Shown: positions 3,030 to 62,731 of the stretch, one piece after another
Layout: the number at the start of each line of letters is the position of its first letter
Numbering within the stretch: the first letter of the stretch is position 1
Origin: Azospirillaceae bacterium
GTDB lineage: Bacteria; Pseudomonadota; Alphaproteobacteria; Azospirillales; Azospirillaceae
Reading direction: 5' to 3'
Length of the DNA: 64,000 nt
Assembly: GCA_028283825.1 (NCBI GenBank)
Contig: JAPWJW010000003.1
Span: forward strand, 372,001 to 436,000
Notes under the pieces: generated by a model
The model's input: only the letters and a program-made list of their open reading frames with translations
What the model was told of the DNA's origin: nothing
Databases searched by the model: none
Translations under genes and position numbers: made by a program

Positions 3030-5530
3030 GTTCCGCGCCGTTTCGCCCGCGCTGTCGGCTCCGCCTCCAGCGGATTGTCGGGCCAGTAATGGCGGGGATA
3101 GCGCCCGGCCAAATCCTTCTTCACGTCGCGATAGGTGTTGGCCCAGAAGGAGGCCAGGTCGCGCGTGACCTGGATGGGGCGGTGGGCGGGTGACAGCAGG
3201 TGCAGCAGCACGGGCACGCCCGCCACCGTCGGCGTCTGGGCCAGGCCGAACAACTCCTGCAAGCGCACCGCCAGCGTGGGGATCTCCCCGGAATAGTCGA
3301 TGGGCAGGCGTGATCCGCTGGGTACGTCGATGTGGGTGGGGGCCTGCCGTTCCATCTCCTGGGCCCGGTTCCAGTCCAGCAGGCCGGTCAGCGCGTTATG
3401 CAGGTCCAGGCGCGGCAGGTGGCCGGCGCGGCTGATGCCCGGCAGATAGGGGGCCAGCCAGTCCTCCATGCCCGCCAGCAGGGCCTCATCCGACATGTCC
3501 GGCCAGGTGTCGGCATCGGCGCGGTGCAGGAACCGCACGCGCTCGCGCCAGGTGTCCAGCGCCTTGGTCCACGGCAGGCTGGCCAGGCCCATCTCGCGGA
3601 TGCCGGTCATCATGGCGGCGGCCACGGACTCAGGCTGCGGCTGGGTCAGGGCCTCATCCTTCAGCACCAGGCCGAACAGCCGGCGGCGGCGGCGGGCCAG
3701 CACGGCCTGCTCCCGACCATCCCAGGTGACCACCTCCTCCGTCACGATGCGGTCGGCGTAGACCTCCTCGATCTCATCGCGGCTGATGGGGGCGGCCAGG
3801 TAGATGCGGGCCTCGCGCGTGTTGCCGTCCAGGTCACCCACGGCCAGCCAGTCCTGGCGCGACAGCGCATCGGCCGTGTCCAGCACCGCCCCCTTGCCGC
3901 TGGCCAGGCGGTATTGTCCCTGGCCGCCCGGGCGCTTCTGCGCCAACCGGTCGGGATAGGCCAGGGCCAGCAGGCGGCCGGCATCCTCGCCGGTGAAGCG
4001 GCGGTCGGTGATGCGCAGCTGGCGCATCACCTGGCGAGCGCCCTCGCGAATCTGGCGCAAGGCGTTGCGGTCGGCGGCACCATTGTCGTCGCCCGACAGC
4101 AGATCCAGCCGGCGGCGCAGATCAGCATCGCGGCTGATGCCGCGCAGGGGATCGCGCTCCCCCAGCAGGCCGGCCAGGTGGGCCGCCGCCGCACCCAGGC
4201 CCATCTCCATGCCCACCAGCACCATGTGGGCCAGGCGCGGATGCATGCCAAGCGTGGCCATGCGGCGGCCGTGCGGCGTGATCTTGCCGGCGGCGTCCAG
4301 CGCGCCCAACTGCGCCAGCAGGTCGCGGGCTTGGGTCAGCGGGGCGGCCGGCGGCGCATCCAGCCAGGGCAGGGTGGCGGCGTCATCCACCCCCCAGGCC
4401 GCCAGTTCCAGCGCCAGGGGCGCCAGGTCGGCGCGCAGGATTTCCGGCGCGGCGAAGGGCACCAGGGCGCGGTCCGCCTGCTCGCTCCACAGCCGATAGC
4501 AGATGCCGGGTTCCAGCCGGCCGGCGCGGCCCCGGCGCTGGTCGGCCGACGCGCGGGAGGCGCGGGCCGTTTCCAGCCGGTTCATGCCGCTGCCGGGATC
4601 GAAACGGCCCAGGCGGGACTGGCCGCCATCCACCACGATGCGGATGCCGTCGATGGTCAGGCTGGTTTCGGCGATGGCGGTGGCCAGCACCACCTTGCGT
4701 TTGCCGGCCGGCGCCGGGCGGATGGCGGCTTCCTGCTGGTCCAGCGCCAGGTCGCCGTAGAGCGGCGCCACCACCACGTTGGACGGCAGGCCCAGATCGG
4801 CCAGGGCCTTTTCCGTGCGCCGGATTTCCCCCGTGCCGGGCAGGAAGACCAGGGCGCTGCCCGTTTCCTCCGCCAGGGCGCGTTTCACCACGCGGGCGAT
4901 GGAGGTTTCCAGCCGGTCGGTGGCGGACGGTTCCACCCAGCGGGTTTCCACCGGGAAGCTGCGGCCGTCGCTGCTGACCATGGGCGCGTCGCCCAGCAGG
5001 CCGGCCACCGCCGCCCCGTCCAGGGTGGCGGACATGACCAGCAGGCGCAGATCCTCACGCAGCAAGCCCTGCGCCTGAAGGCAGAAGGCCAGGGCCAAGT
5101 CGGCATCCAAGCTGCGTTCGTGGAATTCGTCGAACAACACAGCACCCACGCCGTCCAGCGACGGGTCGGCCTGAAGCTGGCGCAGGAACAGGCCTTCCGT
5201 CACCACTTCGATCCGGGTGGCGGGGCCGACGCGGGTATCCAGGCGCACGCGATAGCCCACGGTCTCGCCCACCGCTTCGCCCAATGTGTCGGCCATGCGC
5301 TTGGCGGCGGCGCGGGCGGCCAGGCGGCGCGGTTCCAGCATGACGATGCGCTGGCCAGCCAGCCAGGGCTGGTCCAGCAGGGCCAGGGGCACACGCGTCG
5401 TCTTGCCGGCGCCGGGGGCGGCCTGCAGCACGGCGTTGGGGCCGGTCGCCATCACCCGCAGCAGGTCGGGCAGGACGGCGTCGATGGGAAGCGCGGAAGG
5501 GGGAAGGACGGGCGGCATGATCGCCGTCAT
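3026..5530 (-). CDS. hrpB: ATP-dependent RNA helicase HrpB
   Basis: An 834-residue DEAH-family helicase. The N-terminal RecA-like domain has a Walker A motif GAGKTT at residues 40-45 and a DEFH box (VLFDEFHERSLDAD) near residue 135. Motif III SATLDG and motif VI (QRRGRAGR) follow. The C-terminus ends with the HrpB signature segment (YPRHYWPDNPLEAEP). The length is close to the usual size of about 820 residues. HrpB is widespread in proteobacteria; its exact RNA substrates are poorly defined. The start at 5530 (MTAIMPPV) could instead be the internal ATG at 5518. The gene is convergent with bla, the two stop codons overlapping within TTAA. Confidence 0.95.
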   Translation of the reverse strand: MTAIMPPVLPPSALPIDAVLPDLLRVMATGPNAVLQAAPGAGKTTRVPLALLDQPWLAGQRIVMLEPRRLAARAAAKRMADTLGEAVGETVGYRVRLDTRVGPATRIEVVTEGLFLRQLQADPSLDGVGAVLFDEFHERSLDADLALAFCLQAQGLLREDLRLLVMSATLDGAAVAGLLGDAPMVSSDGRSFPVETRWVEPSATDRLETSIARVVKRALAEETGSALVFLPGTGEIRRTEKALADLGLPSNVVVAPLYGDLALDQQEAAIRPAPAGKRKVVLATAIAETSLTIDGIRIVVDGGQSRLGRFDPGSGMNRLETARASRASADQRRGRAGRLEPGICYRLWSEQADRALVPFAAPEILRADLAPLALELAAWGVDDAATLPWLDAPPAAPLTQARDLLAQLGALDAAGKITPHGRRMATLGMHPRLAHMVLVGMEMGLGAAAAHLAGLLGERDPLRGISRDADLRRRLDLLSGDDNGAADRNALRQIREGARQVMRQLRITDRRFTGEDAGRLLALAYPDRLAQKRPGGQGQYRLASGKGAVLDTADALSRQDWLAVGDLDGNTREARIYLAAPISRDEIEEVYADRIVTEEVVTWDGREQAVLARRRRRLFGLVLKDEALTQPQPESVAAAMMTGIREMGLASLPWTKALDTWRERVRFLHRADADTWPDMSDEALLAGMEDWLAPYLPGISRAGHLPRLDLHNALTGLLDWNRAQEMERQAPTHIDVPSGSRLPIDYSGEIPTLAVRLQELFGLAQTPTVAGVPVLLHLLSPAHRPIQVTRDLASFWANTYRDVKKDLAGRYPRHYWPDNPLEAEPTARAKRRGT

Positions 5531-10423: not shown

Positions 10424-10966
10424 ATGACGGACAAGAATGGCCCCGCGGGGAAAGGGATTCCCGGCAAGGGCACGCGGGTGGTGGAAATCATCGAGCTACC
10501 CAACAAGCTGCGTGCCAAGGTGGGCGGCAGCAGCGACGGCAAGCCCGGGCAGATCGACCCCGCCGCCATCGAGCGGGCCACCCGCCACGTGGCGCGGATG
10601 AGCGACGCGCACCAGGCGCAGACCCGCATCGACCTCACCACCCTGCAGGCGGCGTTCGAGCAGGCGAAACGGGATGAGCCGAACCGGGCCCAGCACCTGC
10701 GCAAGGTCTACAAGATCGCCGACGGCATCATGACCCTGGGCCGGACCTTCGGCTATAACCTGCTGTCCGACTTCGCCAATTCCATGAACCATTTCCTGGT
10801 GGGAATCGAGGCGCCGACCGATGCGCAGATGACCGTGCTGGCCCTGCACATCGATGCCATGCACGTGGTCATCCGCGACGACGTGAAGGGCGATGGCGGG
10901 GAACTGGGCCAGGCCCTGACCAAGTCCCTGGCCTTGGCCCGCGCCAAGCTGATTCATAAGAGGTAA
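10424..10966 (+). CDS. Conserved helical protein paired with the response regulator
   Basis: 180 residues, soluble and mostly alpha-helical. After a flexible N-terminus (TDKNGPAGKGIPGKGTRVVEI) come amphipathic helices: IERATRHVARMSDAHQAQ, LQAAFEQAKRD, and a central YKIADGIMTLGRTFGYNLLSDFANSMNHF, then LALHIDAMHVVIRDD. The size and four-helix character would fit a docking or histidine-phosphotransfer-like partner of the upstream receiver, but no clear HPt His motif was identified, so this is only a guess. The ATG at 10424 was chosen because the frame upstream of it lies inside the response regulator gene. Confidence 0.75.
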   Translation: MTDKNGPAGKGIPGKGTRVVEIIELPNKLRAKVGGSSDGKPGQIDPAAIERATRHVARMSDAHQAQTRIDLTTLQAAFEQAKRDEPNRAQHLRKVYKIADGIMTLGRTFGYNLLSDFANSMNHFLVGIEAPTDAQMTVLALHIDAMHVVIRDDVKGDGGELGQALTKSLALARAKLIHKR

Positions 10967-10971
10967 GTTCG

Positions 10972-11100
10972 CCCTCGGGCGGCGGGCGGCCGCATCCGCG
11001 GCCTTGCCTTCCTCGATTTCCAGTCCGCTGCCGCTCCCCAGAAATCTCCGGCGCCCGCGGTTGCGGGCTACCGGGGCATGAGTTGAAGCTCGTGCCCCGG
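10972..11100 (-). repeat. Structured intergenic repeat, copy B (minus orientation)
   Basis: Read on the minus strand it has the four-hairpin order shared by the four copies in this window. Hairpin 1 is CCGGGGCA...TGCCCCGG (11100-11071). Stem 2 is GCCCGC/GCGGGC (11068-11053), then GCCGGA (11052-11047). Hairpin 3 is GATTTC...GAAATC (11046-11015), then GAGGA (11014-11010). Stem 4 is GGCCGC-GGAT-GCGGCC (11003-10988), then GCCCGCCG and CCCGAGGG. It fills the whole gap between the convergent genes ending at 10966 and 11115. Possible roles are a bidirectional terminator or mRNA 3'-end element. Confidence 0.8.
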
Positions 11101-11114
11101 GGTTTGGCGTGTGC

Positions 11115-13574
11115 CTACTTGTCCTTCTTGGCGCGGGCGAAGGCGTCGGCCAGGGCGCCGCCGAAGGCATCGCCGAAGGAGCCGCCGCGCGACTCCTGCG
11201 ACTTGCCGCCCCGATCACCGCCCTGTGGCCGGTTGCCCGACGGCTTGCGATCGCCCTGGGGACGATCCCCCTGGGGCCGGTTTCCCGGCGGACGATTGCC
11301 TTGGGGGCGGGGGCCGTTGCGGTTGTCGCCGCGCGCCTCATTGGGGCGGCTGTCGCGCCCACCCTCTTGACGCCCATTGGCCGGCCGCTCGGCCTGTTCC
11401 TCCAGGCGCATGGTCAGGGCGACGCGGCGGCGCTTCAGGTCCACCTCCAGCACCTTGACCTTGACGATGTCGCCGGCCGTGACGACGGCGTGCGGGTCCT
11501 TCACGAACTTGCCGGCCAGCTGCGAAATATGGACCAGGCCGTCCTGGTGGACGCCCACGTCGACGAAGGCGCCGAAGGCGGTGACATTGGTGACCACGCC
11601 CTCCAGCACCATGTCGGGCTGCAGGTCCTTCAGTTCCACCACCCCGTCCTTGAAGGCGGCGGTCTTGAACTCGGGGCGCGGGTCGCGGCCCGGCTTCTCC
11701 AGTTCCTTAAGGATATCTTCGACCGTTGGGATACCGAAACGGTCGTCGGCATAGTCGGCCGGGTCCAGGCCGCGCAGGAAGGGCACGTCGCCGATCAGCG
11801 TGGCCAGCGTCCGGCCGCTCTTGGCCAGGATGCGTTCCACCACGGTGTAGGATTCCGGGTGGACGGCCGATCCGTCCAGGGCGTTCTCACCATCGCGGAT
11901 GCGCAGGAAGCCCGCCGCTTGTTCGAACGCCTTGGGCCCCAGGCGCGACACGTCCAGCAGCTGGCGCCGGTTGCGGAAGGCGCCGTTGCTGTCGCGGTGC
12001 TCGACGATGTTGCGCGCGATGCTGTCGCTCAGGCCCGACACCCGGGCCAGCAGGGGTACCGACGCGGTGTTCAAATCCACGCCGACGCCGTTCACGCAAT
12101 CCTCCACCACCGCGTCCAGGGTGCGGGCCAGCTTGGTGGGGCTGACGTCATGCTGGTACTGGCCGACGCCGATGGACTTGGGGTCGATCTTCACCAGCTC
12201 GGCCAGCGGATCCTGCAGGCGCCGGGCGATGGAGACGGCGCCGCGCAGGCTGACGTCCAGGTTGGGGAATTCCTTGGCCGCCACTTCCGACGCGGAATAG
12301 ACCGAGGCGCCGGCCTCCGACACCATGATCTTGGTCAGCTTCAGCTGCGGGAACTGGCTCATCAGGTCGGCGGCCAGCTTGTCCGTTTCCCGCGACGCGG
12401 TGCCGTTGCCGATGGCGATCAGGCCGACATCGTACCGGGCGGCCAGGGCCGCCAGCGCGGCGATGGACCCGGCCCAGTCGCGGCGCGGCTCATGCGGGTA
12501 GATGACGGCCGTGTCCAGCATCTTGCCGGTGGCGTCCACCACCGCCACCTTCACGCCGGTGCGGATGCCGGGGTCCAGGCCCAGGGTGGCGCGCTGGCCA
12601 GCGGGCGGGGCCAGCAGCAGGCCCTTCAGGTTACGGCCGAAGACGGCGATGGCCTCATCCTCCGCCCGGTCGCGCACCTCACCCATCAGGTCCAGTTCCA
12701 GGTGCAGCGCGATCTTGGTGCGCCAGGCCCAGCGGCAGGTGTCCAGCAGCCAGCGGTCGGCCGGCCGGCCCTGGTCCCGGATGTCGAATCGGTTGGCGAT
12801 GGCCACCTCGCAGGGGTGGGCTTGGCCGGGTGCGGGGTCTTCGCCCACCTTGACCGCCAGGTCCAGGATGCCGCCGGCCCGGCCGCGGAACAGCGCCAGC
12901 GCCCGGTGCGAGGGCAATGCTGCCAGCGCCTCCGCCTTGTCGAAATAGTCGGAGAACTTGGCGCCCTCCTCGGCCTTGCCCTCCACCACGGTGGAGACGA
13001 CGCGGCCGTGTTCCTTGCAGTAACCGCGCAGGAAACCCAGCAGTTCGGCGTTCTCGCCCATGCGTTCCACCAGGATCGCGCGGGCGCCGTCCAGGGCGGC
13101 CTTGACGTCGGCGACGCCCTTTTCGGCATCGACGTAGCCGGCGGCGGCGGAGTCGGGGTCATGGCTGGGCTGGCCCAGCAGCAGGTCGGCCAAGGGCTCC
13201 AGTCCCGCCTCGCGGGCGATCATGGCCTTGGTGCGGCGCTTGGGCTTGTAGGGCAGGTACAGATCTTCCAGCCGCGTCTTGGTATCGGCGGCGGCGATCT
13301 GCGTCAGCAGTTCCGGCGTCAGCTTGCCCTGTTCCTCAATGGACTTGAGGATGGTGGCGCGCCGCTCTTCCATCTCACGCAGATAGCGTAGGCGCTCATC
13401 CAGGGTGCGCAGCTGGGTGTCGTCCAGGCCGCCCGTCGCCTCTTTGCGATAGCGGGCGATGAAGGGCACGGTCGAGCCTTCGTCCAGCAGGGCGACTGCC
13501 GCGGCCACTTGCTCGGGGCGGGCGGACAGTTCGGTGGCGATCAGGCCGACGATGCGGCGCGCGGTATCGGTCAT
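11115..13574 (-). CDS. tex: Tex-family RNA-binding transcription accessory protein
   Basis: An approximately 819-residue protein with the Tex order of domains: N-terminal helical region ([23 protein letters not shown]), an YqgF/RNase H-like fold in the middle ([20 protein letters not shown]), helix-hairpin-helix segments ([27 protein letters not shown]), and a C-terminal S1 domain ([20 protein letters not shown]). The tail beyond the S1 domain is unusually long, about 90 residues, and made of Gly/Arg/Asn/Pro/Gln repeats ([17 protein letters not shown]), resembling RGG-type RNA-binding tails. The frame could start at 13688, but the conserved N-terminus begins at 13574. Tex is a conserved nucleic-acid-binding factor in transcription and fitness; its mechanism is not fully known. 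Confidence 0.93.
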
Positions 13575-42914: not shown

Positions 42915-43313
42915 ATGAGCGACCAGAGGCCCATTCCCGACTTTTCCGCCGCCCCGGCGCTGCGCACCTTCGCGATGCCGGCCGACACCAACGCCAACGG
43001 CGATATTTTCGGCGGCTGGGTCCTGTCGCAGATGGATTTGGCCGGGGCCGCCAAGGCCATCCGCCGGGCGCGCGGCAAGGTCGCCACCGTGGGCGTGGAG
43101 GCGATGAAGTTCTATCGCCCCGTGGCCGTGGGCGACGAGTTGAACTGCTACACCGAGATCATCGCCGTCGGCCGCACCTCCATCCGGGTGCGCATCGACA
43201 CCTGGGTGCGCCGCGGCGCCACGGGCGAGGCGGTGCAGGTGACCGAGGGCGTGTTCACCTACGTCGCCATTGGCGAGGATGGCCGGCCACGGCCGGTGTC
43301 GGTCGAGGATTGA
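42915..43313 (+). CDS. Acyl-CoA thioesterase, YciA-like hotdog protein
   Basis: 132 residues, hotdog fold. Landmarks: RTFAMPADTNANGDIFGGWVLSQMDLAG (with the catalytic Asp in the NGDIFGGW region), KVATVGVEAMKFYRPVAVGDEL and RTSIRVRIDTWVRR. It hydrolyses acyl-CoA thioesters in the cytoplasm; chain-length preference cannot be read. It is divergent from parE, with a 135-bp promoter gap, and followed by structured repeat copy A. Confidence 0.9.
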   Translation: MSDQRPIPDFSAAPALRTFAMPADTNANGDIFGGWVLSQMDLAGAAKAIRRARGKVATVGVEAMKFYRPVAVGDELNCYTEIIAVGRTSIRVRIDTWVRRGATGEAVQVTEGVFTYVAIGEDGRPRPVSVED

Positions 43314-43317
43314 TGCC

Positions 43318-43443
43318 AGCGGCACGAGATTCTGACTCGTGCCGCTTAGGCCCCGACTGGGGCCGCCGGAAGTTCAAGGGCGCCGACAGCGCCCTTGAAC
43401 TGAGGAAGCCAGCCCGCGGATGCGGGCGCCCGGCGCTTGAGGG
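43318..43443 (+). repeat. Structured intergenic repeat, copy A (plus orientation)
   Basis: The clearest copy. Hairpin 1 is an 11-bp perfect stem AGCGGCACGAG/CTCGTGCCGCT (43318-43346). Stem 2 is GGCCCC-GACT-GGGGCC (43349-43364), then GCCGGA (43365-43370). Hairpin 3 is a 13-bp perfect stem (43371-43401), then GAGGA (43402-43406) and AGCCA. Stem 4 is GCCCGC-GGAT-GCGGGC (43412-43427), then GCCCGGCG and CTTGAGGG. It begins 5 bp after the thioesterase stop, between convergent genes. Confidence 0.85.
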
Positions 43444-54895: not shown

Positions 54896-54910
54896 GGGGG
54901 GCATACGCGC

Positions 54911-54938
54911 GGCCTTTGATCGTGACCGATCAAAGGCC
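54911..54938 (+). terminator. Perfect hairpin after the DUF2000 gene
   Basis: A 12-bp perfect stem GGCCTTTGATCG/CGATCAAAGGCC with a TGAC loop, 15 bp after the stop codon. It is directly next to structured repeat copy C; no T tract follows. Confidence 0.6.
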
Positions 54939-55060
54939 CCCTCAGGCGCCGGGCGCCAGCATCCGCTGGCTTGGCTATCCTCGGTGAAGCCCTGCGGTGC
55001 TCACTCCGGGGCCGGCCGTCGCCGGCCTCCAGGGGCACAAGTCAAAATTTGTGCCCCTGG
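54939..55060 (-). repeat. Structured intergenic repeat, copy C (minus orientation)
   Basis: Read on the minus strand: hairpin 1 is a 12-bp stem CCAGGGGCACAA/TTGTGCCCCTGG (55060-55029). Stem 2 is GGCCGGC/GCCGGCC (55027-55010), then CCGGA. Hairpin 3 is a shorter GTGAGC...GCTTCAC (55004-54984), then GAGGA (54982-54978) and AGCCAA. Stem 4 is GCCAGC-GGAT-GCTGGC (54970-54955), then GCCCGGCG and CCTGAGGG. It lies between convergent DUF2000 and HxlR genes. Confidence 0.8.
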
Positions 55061-55062
55061 TA

Positions 55063-55512
55063 TCAATCCTTGGCCGGGTGCCGGACCAGGGCATCCGTGC
55101 ACGCCAGTGCCTTTCCGTCGGCGCGCCGCACCTCCAGCCGGCCGACCGGCTGGCCGGTATGGCTGTCCACCAGCCGGGAATACGCCTCATCCGGGGCGTA
55201 GCAATGATCCTCCCCCCACTGGCGCAAACCCACGATCACCGGGAACAGGGCGCGGCCCTTGGCCGTCAGGGCGTAGTCCTGGTGGGTGCCGCCGTCGGCG
55301 GGGGGCCGGCTTTCCAGAATGCCGAGGGTCACCAGGTCGCGCAGGCGGGCGGCCAGGATGCCCTTGGAAATGCCCAGGTTCCTTTGGAAATCCCCAAAAC
55401 GGCGGGGCCCCTCCAGGGCATCGCGCACGATCAGCAGCGACCACCAGTCGCCGATGACGTCCAGGGCGCGCGCCACCGGGCAGGGATCTTCGGTCAGGCT
55501 GCGTCGTTTCAT
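55063..55512 (-). CDS. HxlR-family transcriptional regulator
   Basis: 149 residues, winged helix-turn-helix: CPVARALDVIGDWWSLLIVRDAL, the RRFGDFQRNLGISKGILAARL recognition region, and the wing DYALTAKGRALFPVI. The Cys near the N-terminus (DPCPVARAL) is the position used by some HxlR members for redox sensing. It is divergent from the frameshifted MFS transporter, the likely target. The intervening 93 bp contain GGTTCTAAAATAGAAC (dyad) and a second GGTTCCATTATAGAACC, good operator candidates. Confidence 0.9.
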   Translation of the reverse strand: MKRRSLTEDPCPVARALDVIGDWWSLLIVRDALEGPRRFGDFQRNLGISKGILAARLRDLVTLGILESRPPADGGTHQDYALTAKGRALFPVIVGLRQWGEDHCYAPDEAYSRLVDSHTGQPVGRLEVRRADGKALACTDALVRHPAKD

Positions 55513-60584: not shown

Positions 60585-61634
60585 ATGATGGGGATGGGAT
60601 TGTCACGTTGGGCCGGCGCGGCGCTGGTACTGCTGAGCTTGCATGGTGTCGCCGCCGCGCGCGACAATGCGCCGCTGCCCGGCGATCAGGCGATCCAGCA
60701 GGCGGTAGACCAGGCCTATGCCAAGTTCAAGGGCGTGACCGACGGCCAGAACGCCAGCTACATCCCCTATCTGGCCAAGGCCGATCCCAAGCTGTACGGC
60801 ATCGCCGTGGTCACGGCCGATGGCCGGGTGTTCAAGGCGGGTGACGCCGGCCATGCCTTCCCGGTGGAATCCATCGCCAAGGTCTTCACCCTGGCCCGCG
60901 TGCTGAAGGACCAGGGGGCGGAAGCCATCGAGGCCAAGATCGGCGTCAACGCCACCGGCCAGCCCTTCAATTCCGTGCTGGCGGTGGAACTGAACAACGA
61001 CAAGCTGACCGGCAGCCCGCCGCCCGGTAACCCGTTGGTCAACGCCGGCGCCATCGCCACCGCCAGCCTGGTGCCGGGGGCGACGCTGGACGCGAAGTGG
61101 AAGACGGTGCTGGACACGGCGTCGGCCTTCGCCGGCCATCCGCTGGCCCTGAACCAGGATGTCTACCGGTCGGAAATGTCCGGCAACCAGCACAACCAGG
61201 CCATCGCCCTGCTGCTGCAGAGTTACGACCATTTGTACGCCGACCCGATGGCGACGGTGGACCTCTACACCCGTGAATGTTCCTACGACGTCAGTGCGGT
61301 GGACCTGGCCACCATGGGCGCCACCCTGGCCAACGGCGGCACCAACCCCGTCAGCCACCAGGCGGTGGTCGATGCCGCCACCGGCGCCCGGGTGCTGGCC
61401 GTCATGGCCACCGCCGGCCTCTACAACACCACCGGTGAATGGCTGTTCAAGGTGGGCCTGCCGGGCAAGAGCGGTGTCGGCGGCGGCATTCTGGCGGTGG
61501 CGCCGGGCAAGCTGGCCATCGGCGTCTACTCATCCCCCCTGGATGCCGCCGGCAACAGCGTGCGCGGCCAACTGGCGGTGCAGTCCATCGCCGAGGCGCT
61601 GGGCCTGAACCTGTTCGCCTCCACGGCGCGCTAA
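60585..61634 (+). CDS. glsA: Glutaminase A with an N-terminal signal sequence
   Basis: About 349 residues; converts glutamine to glutamate and ammonia. Serine-dependent glutaminase motifs: VESIAKVFTLARVL (S-x-x-K nucleophile), FNSVLAVELN, PGNPLVNAGAIATASL, MSGNQHNQAIALLL, RECSYDVSAVDLATMGATLANGG and GKSGVGGGILAV. A hydrophobic N-terminus (RWAGAALVLLSLHGVAAA) appears to be a signal peptide, while the common GlsA is cytosolic and about 305 residues. The start is ambiguous among GTG 60561 and ATGs at 60570, 60585, 60588; AAAGGG sits 8 nt before 60585. Confidence 0.92.
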   Translation: MMGMGLSRWAGAALVLLSLHGVAAARDNAPLPGDQAIQQAVDQAYAKFKGVTDGQNASYIPYLAKADPKLYGIAVVTADGRVFKAGDAGHAFPVESIAKVFTLARVLKDQGAEAIEAKIGVNATGQPFNSVLAVELNNDKLTGSPPPGNPLVNAGAIATASLVPGATLDAKWKTVLDTASAFAGHPLALNQDVYRSEMSGNQHNQAIALLLQSYDHLYADPMATVDLYTRECSYDVSAVDLATMGATLANGGTNPVSHQAVVDAATGARVLAVMATAGLYNTTGEWLFKVGLPGKSGVGGGILAVAPGKLAIGVYSSPLDAAGNSVRGQLAVQSIAEALGLNLFASTAR

Positions 61635-61637
61635 GAT

Positions 61638-61769
61638 CAACCATGGGAGGCATAGCCTCACGTGGTTGTAGGCCGCGACTGCGGCCGCCGGAGATTTTCG
61701 GGGAGCGTCAGCGGACTGAAAATCGAGGATGAGCCAAGTCGCCGGATGGCGACGCCCGGCGTTTGAGGG
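61638..61769 (+). repeat. Structured intergenic repeat, copy D (plus orientation)
   Basis: Hairpin 1 is CAACCATG...GTGGTTG with inner GAGGC/GCCTC (61638-61668). Stem 2 is GGCCGC-GACT-GCGGCC (61671-61686), then GCCGGA (61687-61692). Hairpin 3 is GATTTTC...GAAAATC (61693-61724), then GAGGA (61725-61729) and GAGCCAA. Stem 4 is GTCGCC-GGAT-GGCGAC (61738-61753), then GCCCGGCG and TTTGAGGG. It begins 4 bp after the glsA stop and ends 5 bp before the convergent AraC gene. Confidence 0.85.
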
Positions 61770-61773
61770 AATT

Positions 61774-62731
61774 CTAGCTAGCGATCGCCAGGGAGGGCAT
61801 GTCCTTCCCAGCCGTCTGGCCGTACTGCCGGGGGGACGTGCCCATCACCCGCTTGAACGCGGTGCTGAAGGCGCTTTCCGATTCATAGCCCAGCGACAGG
61901 GCGATGACGGAAATGGGGTCCGTCGTGCTGGCCAGCCGGTTGGCGGCCAGGGTCATGCGCCAGCGGGTCAGGTAATCCATGGGCGACAGGCCCACCATGT
62001 CCTTGAACCGCTGGGCGAAGGTGGAGCGCGACATGCCGGCCTTCCCCGCCAGTTCCTGCAAGGTCCAGCGGCGGGCCGGATCGCCGTGCAGGGCGGTGAT
62101 GGCGGCGCACATCTGGCGGTCCGCCAGGGCGAACAGCCAGCCGACGCCGCCCTGCCGCCCGTCCGCCACATGCAGGCGCAGGGCCTGCACCAGCATCATG
62201 TAGGCCAGCTGCTGGGCGATCAGCAGGGCGCCGGGCCGGGGTTCGCGCAGTTCGCGCATCATGCTGTCCATGGCCCAGCGCAGGGTGGCCCTGGCCGCCT
62301 CATCCCGAATGTGGACGATGGGGGGCAGCATGCCCAGCAGGATGTCGGCGTGGACGCCGTCCAGGACGAAATGCCCGCCCACGCCCACCGACTTGCCGCC
62401 GCCATTGTGGACGACGATGCTGCCGTTGGGGTTGCCGCCGAACACCGTCATGGCGTCGGTCGGCGGCAGGCTGAGGTCGCTGGCCAGGACGAAGGGCAGG
62501 CCGCGCGGCAACAGGAAACAATCTCCCAGCGCTCAGCAGCACCGGTTCGCTCCCGCCCTCCACCGCCAGCCAGGCCTCGCCCGAGGCGATGGCGTAGCAT
62601 TTGATCCCCCGCACGCCGCCGTGCCCCATCGGCATGTCGTAGCGCATGGACCAATCGCCGCCCATGTCGAAGCCGCCACAGCGGTAGCTGCGCGGGCGCA
62701 GCAGGGCCAGCACATCGGACAAGGGATCCAT
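61774..62731 (-). pseudogene. AraC-family regulator interrupted by a single-base frameshift
   Basis: The N-terminal cupin part starts at 62731 (MDPLSDVLALLRPRSYRCGGFD) after a strong AAGGAGG, and runs in one frame to about 62527. The remainder, including the C-terminal helix-turn-helix (MSRSTFAQRFKDMVGLSPMDYL, ISVIALSLGYESESAFSTAFKRVMG), continues in another. Removing one base from the CCC at 62525-62527 restores LLSAGDCFLLPRGLP. Intact, it would be an approximately 318-residue AraC protein with a cupin_6-like sensor. Either an authentic mutation or a base-calling error. It is divergent from the SDR gene, its probable target. Confidence 0.85.

Follow-up and report, generated by a model that had tools for sequence, protein, structure and literature searches.

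The four structured repeats of the window, which is the whole 64,000-nucleotide stretch of Azospirillaceae DNA analysed here, probably belong to a family of non-autonomous, MITE-like mobile elements of Rhodospirillales and a few other Alphaproteobacteria, whose base pairing is selected during mobilisation. The element is short, carries no transposase gene and makes no protein. The simplest joint reading of the data is that the pairing results from selection while the element is being mobilised, and that the copies then drift with no job at each locus. The family provides a clear case in which strong covariation points to a mobile element and not to a local function, and because of this covariation the elements could pass for terminators, small RNAs or riboswitch-like RNAs.

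Using a covariance model, R1, built from a structure-blind MAFFT alignment of 30 copies including those of the window, we recovered all four copies at the positions given in an earlier note on this DNA. Their scores ranged from 97.6 to 143.6 bits (the four being part of the model), and the next-best match in the window reached 12.8 bits. Copy 1 (10972 to 11105, minus strand; 124.5 bits) consists of HP1-HP2-HP3-HP4 with the 3′ end CCCGAGGG and is without HP5; according to our own gene caller, it lies between a plus-strand gene ending at 10966 and a minus-strand gene ending at 11115. Copy 2 (43312 to 43443, plus strand; 118.1 bits) also comprises HP1 to HP4 without HP5, and the TGA at 43311 to 43313, the stop codon of the predicted gene 42915 to 43313, stands immediately 5′ of TGCCAGCGG. 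Copy 4 (61633 to 61769, plus strand; 143.6 bits) has the same four hairpins, again without HP5, and is flanked by a plus-strand gene ending at 61634 and a minus-strand gene ending at 61774, both from our gene caller. Copy 3, delimited by reading to 54904 to 55062 on the minus strand (R1 match at 54939 to 55064, minus strand, 97.6 bits), is near full-length, with the order TACC-HP1-HP2-HP3-HP4-GCCCGGCGCCTGAGGG-HP5-GCGCGTA. Its HP5, GGCCTTTGATC-GGTCAC-GATCAAAGGCC (54911 to 54938, minus strand), is the only one in the window. The predicted gene that ends here has its stop codon, TGA, at 55065 to 55063 (minus strand), and the triplet after GTA is TGC, so the target duplication of this copy is not intact.

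The stem-4 sequences that had been quoted for the four copies were all correct: GGCCGC-GGAT-GCGGCC in copy 1 (10988 to 11003, minus strand), GCCCGC-GGAT-GCGGGC in copy 2 (43412 to 43427, plus strand), GCCAGC-GGAT-GCTGGC in copy 3 (54955 to 54970, minus strand) and GTCGCC-GGAT-GGCGAC in copy 4 (61738 to 61753, plus strand). Folded singly as RNA, copies 1 to 4 gave z scores of -2.8, -7.1, -5.1 and -4.1, respectively, against dinucleotide shuffles. The single architecture that the earlier note had assigned to all four held overall but needed correction in several parts: the minus strand carries copies 1 and 3; in copy 1, GCCCGCCG-CCCGAGGG stands where the supposedly shared 3′ linkers GCCCGGCG-YYTGAGGG were expected; and copy 3 is without GCCGGA, has a different hairpin 3 and possesses a fifth hairpin and a fuller 3′ end. 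HP5, the ends of the element and its mobility had escaped that note.

Across genera the order of parts was HP1, AG, HP2, HP3, AGCCAAG, HP4, GCCCGGCG and YYTGAGGG, with a long and variable HP1, an HP2 loop of GACC, GACT or GAAT, and an HP4 loop of GGAT. HP3 was variable, and in the genus of the window it mostly contained a GGA/GGA internal loop and a covarying inner pair. The full-length form measures ~145 to 165 bp (144 to 172 bp in a set of 49 copies) and reads TACC(A/G)-HP1-AG-HP2-HP3-AGCCAAG-HP4 (loop GGAT)-GCCCGGCGYYTGAGGG-HP5-GGTA, with TNA on either side. HP5 was present in at least 22 of 69 sampled places of the window's own genome (two counted twice) and in intact copies of other genera. 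Intact copies start with TACC and end with GGTA, and the terminal inverted repeats TACC(A/G)...(Y)GGTA were found in copies of genomes G010, G030 and G081; in most copies of the window's own genus the ends are worn. Across a mixed collection of 198 copies, TACC (62) and GGTA (50) occurred no more often in the expected stretch than some control 4-mers. We left an outer helix, GCCGG/CCGGC, enclosing HP3 and HP4, out of the model, as both of its sides are near-invariant and several copies break it, e.g., with GCCCGCCG in window copy 1.

Shuffle controls were used to judge the significance of covariation. In the 30-copy alignment, 93.6% of the cells paired and 26 of 35 pairs showed two-sided changes; of 500 shuffles, none matched any of five covariation measures. 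In a model-fitted alignment of 96 distinct rows, chiefly but not solely from the window's genus, 97.7% of the cells were paired and two-sided changes occurred in 32 of the 35 pairs. An alignment-free comparison of HP4, in which the expectation came from random re-pairing of the arms, was made on cleanly sorted sets (the genus versus named other genera), which were also used for the strand and orientation tests below. HP4 was perfectly complementary in 80 of 84 genus copies versus 10.5 expected (maximum 21 in 1000 shuffles), with 16 different perfect stems, and in 63 of 76 copies from other genera versus 8.8 expected (maximum 18 in 1000 shuffles), with 19 different perfect stems. The shuffle controls on the alignments and the re-pairing of HP4 bore out the claim of conserved linkers joined to truly covarying stems. 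The further step from covariation to selection on structure stood in part, in that the pairing is more likely selected while the element is moving than at the sites where the copies sit.

If G-T is tolerated above A-C, this can only be because a given strand itself folds, as RNA or single-stranded DNA. In the genus, 60 G-T and 10 A-C cells were counted once HP1 and a fixed G-U pair in HP3 were set aside, and HP1 contained 44 versus 39. For the named other genera the corresponding counts were 26 versus 20 outside HP1 and the fixed pair, and 57 versus 29 within HP1. There is thus fair evidence in the genus that one strand folds singly, and the strand signal in the other genera is not clear. We also determined the linkage of stem types within the element, which bears on whether the copies are clonal, and found it weak or absent (HP2 versus HP4, P = 0.53; HP3 base versus HP4, P = 0.13). 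The exceptions involved the base of HP3, which was linked to the linker that follows it (P < 0.0005) and to the inner pair of HP3 (P = 0.04).

The ends of the element carry the signature of insertion. Among 40 copies of G010, G030 and G081, the triplets flanking TACC and GGTA were equal in 26, versus 10.4 expected from re-pairing and a largest value of 19 in 5000 shuffles. The signal was seen at three bases only, with none for 1, 2 or 4 to 6, and the flanking triplet was TNA in 37 of 40 copies on one side and in 38 of 40 on the other. From this set 26 elements were omitted because the stretch searched did not contain TACC or GGTA, and it retained at least two rows (the first of L333 and of L384) that look mis-assigned. 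In an overlapping set of 49 copies, in which TNA was demanded on both sides so that TNA itself was not under test, and from which seven copies with short flanks were dropped, the middle base agreed in 38 copies versus 13.3 expected from the triplet counts. A stricter end search yielded 13 copies, in which the target duplication was not significant (P = 0.2). Equal flanking triplets together with TACC and GGTA indicated that the element has short inverted ends and generates a 3-bp TNA duplication.

Comparison of related genomes showed that insertion slots differ in their content. Of 18 R1 matches in G002 whose slot was located in G006 (two of them being overlapping matches at one place with worn remnants), 9 had the same occupant, defined as at least 85% identical, 8 had another and 1 slot was empty; in the reverse direction, 22 G006 matches traced in G002 gave 9, 7 and 6, respectively. 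The boundaries of the empty sites inspected were blurred in most cases. Orientation varied as well. At the same gene end, the elements at G002 37566 and G006 707676 (coordinates of joined stretches) point in opposite directions between flanks that are 96% identical, and at another locus the orientation in G004 differs from that in G000, G002, G003 and G006. Two slots were scored as flipped between G002 and G006, one of which is a weak overlapping match with worn remnants.

Copies shared between close species revealed how the stems change once they are in place. In 11 comparisons at nine loci with flanks at least 94% identical, 289 of 302 stem pairs were unchanged, 10 were broken, 3 had become wobble pairs and none was double-changed. 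Changes affected 13 of the 302 pairs versus 37 of 698 unpaired positions, and some mild in situ constraint on the shared copies is possible. A single locus, set against the more distant G000 (flanks 93 to 94% identical), accounted for all five double changes among same-copy pairs, with 2 and 3 in its comparisons. Between different occupants of one slot (six pairs, 70 to 85% identical, with flanks at least 94% identical), 13 stem pairs were double-changed and 6 broken, a pattern expected if one family member replaces another. In the shared copies of close species, then, changes accumulate uncompensated, and selection during mobilisation is the best explanation of the pairing. The selection on structure proposed in the earlier note, if taken to act on the copies in place, is not supported in view of the lack of double changes in the 302 shared pairs, of empty and re-occupied slots, and of the inverted ends and duplication.

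With respect to genes, the copies, which number in the hundreds per genome in Nitrospirillum-type bacteria, sit mostly behind them, above all between convergent genes. Of 79 R1 matches in five genus genomes (2.44 Mb, with genes called by our own codon-usage caller), 49 lay in convergent, 28 in co-directional and 2 in divergent gaps; the background comprised 323 convergent, 1149 co-directional and 361 divergent gaps. Two stop codons, TGA and TAA (read as TCA and TTA on the opposite strand), fit the TNA target. Among the full-length copies, 13 of 49 lay exactly in a predicted stop codon, versus 5.0% of intergenic-or-stop TNA sites; 1 lay within a predicted gene, and 35 were in neither a stop codon nor a gene. 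In the contiguous stretches, the upstream stop codon was at the exact expected place in 8 of 68 copies, which was the commonest single distance. Elements in co-directional gaps pointed with the genes in 19 of 28 cases in the contiguous stretches, in 19 of 31 loci of the own genome (two sets that may overlap in some loci) and in 19 of 34 cases in other genera. The orientation bias is thus at most mild.

The covariance model search that the earlier note had proposed retrieved many further copies in the window's own genome and in relatives. Over 464 kb of uninterrupted sequence, window included, R1 found 25 copies, which extrapolates to about 390 copies in the own genome (7.16 Mb, five contigs). 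The pattern GGATN6GCCCGGCG occurred there at 289 places versus 1 for the reversed control, and 27 of the first 30 places inspected were element-like (all except L001, L003 and L020). Among 88 copies sampled from this genome there was no near-identical pair, the nearest being at most 93% identical. Of the 59 genomes searched, 26 (the own genome included) had R1 matches, among them all seven of the genus. A core pattern sought class-wide was found in 8 of 190 genomes with a patchy distribution; it occurred at 244 places in the own genome, and its control at none. Among the matches listed, the bearers were Nitrospirillum, Niveispirillum, Azospirillum, Roseomonas and kin, Magnetospirillum and Terasakiella, as well as Telmatospirillum, Oleisolibacter, Aerophototrophica and two Sphingomonadales, with genus names that rest on 80 of the 120 listed stretches of the genome scan. 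Plasmid records of Niveispirillum and Azospirillum also contained matches. In the four records inspected no annotated feature lay beneath the match, three matches being intergenic and one in a record that lists no genes there. No copy turned up in the phage collection searched. In G010 the full 3′ end occurred at 264 places, many of them identical or nearly so, which probably reflects recent spread in that genome. In several G010 contigs (e.g., C1, C5, C12, C45 and C50) a copy lies within about 150 bases of the contig end, which would follow if the assembly had broken at near-identical copies.

The strong covariation would also be accounted for if the repeats were functional RNAs of 3′ untranslated regions, such as terminators, mRNA stabilisers or insulators between convergent genes, with the pairing kept locus by locus. 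This reading draws on the 49 of 79 copies between convergent genes, on slots that often stay filled across species though the occupant differs, on paired bases that changed less than unpaired ones in shared copies, and on the mild with-gene bias in co-directional gaps of the genus (19/28 and 19/31). Yet that bias is small and is weaker in other genera (19/34), an element at one gene end can face either way, as at the G002/G006 slot and in G004 at another locus, and the changes in copies shared by close species are uncompensated; empty slots, target duplications and inverted ends also speak against a local role, which we regard as unlikely. Alternatively, imperfect palindromes could be corrected at the DNA level by template switching, which would maintain the pairing with no selection involved. 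The weak linkage between stems (HP2 with HP4, P = 0.53; HP3 base with HP4, P = 0.13) looks as if stems change independently, and outside the genus G-T is about as frequent as A-C, both as such a process would have it. Linkers and loops, however, are conserved while the stems vary, broken stems in shared copies stay uncorrected, and the genus tolerates G-T above A-C outside HP1 (60 versus 10), which makes template switching very improbable as the source of the pairing. A CsrA sponge, proposed on account of five GGA motifs, was rejected because CsrA (PF02599) had no match in the own genome; as a control, matches were obtained in 3 of 14 genomes. An intrinsic terminator was rejected because the core has, by eye, no T run, and an integron attC site and group II intron fragments were set aside on anatomy alone.

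Mobility itself could be of the REP/REPIN type, with HP2 as the REP, its foot being GTAG or GGAG, and a RAYT (Y1 transposase) as the mover. TAG or GAG frequently stands immediately 5′ of HP2, the repeats are palindromic, intergenic and numerous, and Y1_Tnp (PF01797), which matched in 18 of the 59 searched genomes in all, was found in some copy-bearing ones (G010, G011, G022, G033, G035 and G041). It was found, however, in none of the seven genomes of the genus and none of the five g12 genomes, the majority of which have many copies; moreover, a target duplication is seen here and, to our knowledge, Y1 elements leave none. We therefore consider movement by a RAYT extremely unlikely. A search for an autonomous element with the same ends, non-exhaustive and covering 2.9 Mb of sequence, found none, its one candidate being two element copies around another gene. 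In G030, inspection by eye of 24 left-end and 19 right-end places showed no pair 1 to 3 kb apart. At L304 (160 to 1560), an open reading frame of 381 amino acids lies between two like-oriented copies, of which the second is incomplete, resembling a composite unit.

For the MITE-like element with pairing selected during mobilisation, the data suggest the following course. An enzyme acting in trans may move the element, and one strand would have to fold, as single-stranded DNA or RNA, in the process. Lineages with broken hairpins would then fail to spread, so that stems would covary between lineages and inserted copies would drift. Insertion at a stop codon with duplication would leave the gene whole, and such insertion, together with the removal of promoter insertions, would account for the position behind genes. 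A more specific version, which we put forward tentatively and consider unlikely, likens the family, in bacteria, to SINEs or to single-stranded transposons: the enzyme would act on a multi-hairpin RNA or single-stranded DNA and place it at TNA, in many cases a stop codon, with a 3-bp duplication, and the strict structure, beyond the ends alone, would be copied and selected. We know of no described bacterial MITE that combines such a target duplication with structural selection. If the folded strand is needed for movement, this points to a new mobilising enzyme, which should be findable, since genomes with recent bursts exist.

Among known mobile elements, the IS1031 group of the IS5 family likewise duplicates a 3-bp TNA target, but its ends are not known to begin with TACC, unlike those of the element here. 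The target of ERIC and Correia elements is TA. According to the sections of PMC2229807 that treat them, ERIC/IRU, RUP and Correia/NEMIS are bacterial MITEs of ~100 to 200 bp, mostly A+T-rich, with a stem formed from the two ends. The present element resembles them, as described there, in its size, in its short terminal inverted repeats without a transposase gene, in target duplication and TA at the ends, and in stable folded transcripts and a chiefly intergenic location (PMC2229807). It differs in being GC-rich, in having five separate hairpins in a row whose stems covary while linkers and loops stay conserved, and in its clade; unlike RUP, for which those sections give a TA target (PMC2229807), it makes a 3-bp TNA duplication. 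CIR repeats of Caulobacter and Brucella, ~110 bp long with a conserved GANTC in a loop, share with it the alphaproteobacterial hosts, intergenic location, linker-joined hairpin arms and TA at the ends (PMC2229807, in the part on these repeats). A comparison with them by description shows that only 21 of 88 copies (reversed-motif control, 4) and 15 of 49 copies of our element carry GANTC within the first 45 nt, and with the motif thus not conserved, a CcrM/GANTC repeat of the CIR type was rejected. From what PMC2229807 says of these groups, CIR repeats are nearest by clade and the bacterial MITEs nearest by kind. REP, BIME and REPIN sequences, as far as PMC3733652 and PMC3116915 characterise them, are similar in their palindromic, extragenic nature, high copy number, and tandem and inverted arrangements; relative to those served by a RAYT, the element here is a bigger composite unit, with no Y1_Tnp in the genus and with a target duplication.

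The earlier note could not match the repeat to a known family by eye, and Rfam 15 agreed: nothing in the window reached a gathering score. A search of two further copies with their loci gave eight matches up to an E value of 10, all below gathering (best E value, 0.27). Nothing was found for the repeat's sequence strings in the open-access literature. Searches by title and abstract, in mostly open-access literature (subscription papers may hold a description), showed no description of it among the works listed on Azospirillum intergenic repeats, REP sequences or MITEs, on structured RNA repeats of Alphaproteobacteria or Rhodospirillales, or on MITEs at stop codons, repeats at convergent genes or Caulobacter-type repeats. 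Azospirillum, Alphaproteobacteria and stop codons are absent from the main-text terms of a 2024 review of prokaryotic MITEs (PMC10969869), and Azospirillum from those of a survey of REP families (PMC3733652). The element appears to be a new, strongly structured variant among bacterial MITE-like elements, set apart from CIR repeats by description.

Several arrangements of copies were observed. Tandem copies with units of ~100 to 150 bp occurred at L102 (1 to 330), L091 (6880 to 7090), L160 (1 to 180), G000 C3 (182240 to 182500) and L284 (16500 to 16738), and for some G010 copies (L339 and L350) the TACC of the next element directly abuts the preceding TNA. At G030 C203 (473 to 564), a left and a right end lie ~75 bp apart, apparently in an internally deleted derivative. 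L104 (2960 to 3300) and L129 (2680 to 3050), apparently the same intergenic slot in two related genomes, each hold two inverted copies around a terminator-like hairpin. Finally, the same 16-mer, GCCCGGCGTTTGAGGG, was found in a different hairpin-rich context at L120 of Streptomyces lasiicapitis (4600 to 4900, minus strand).
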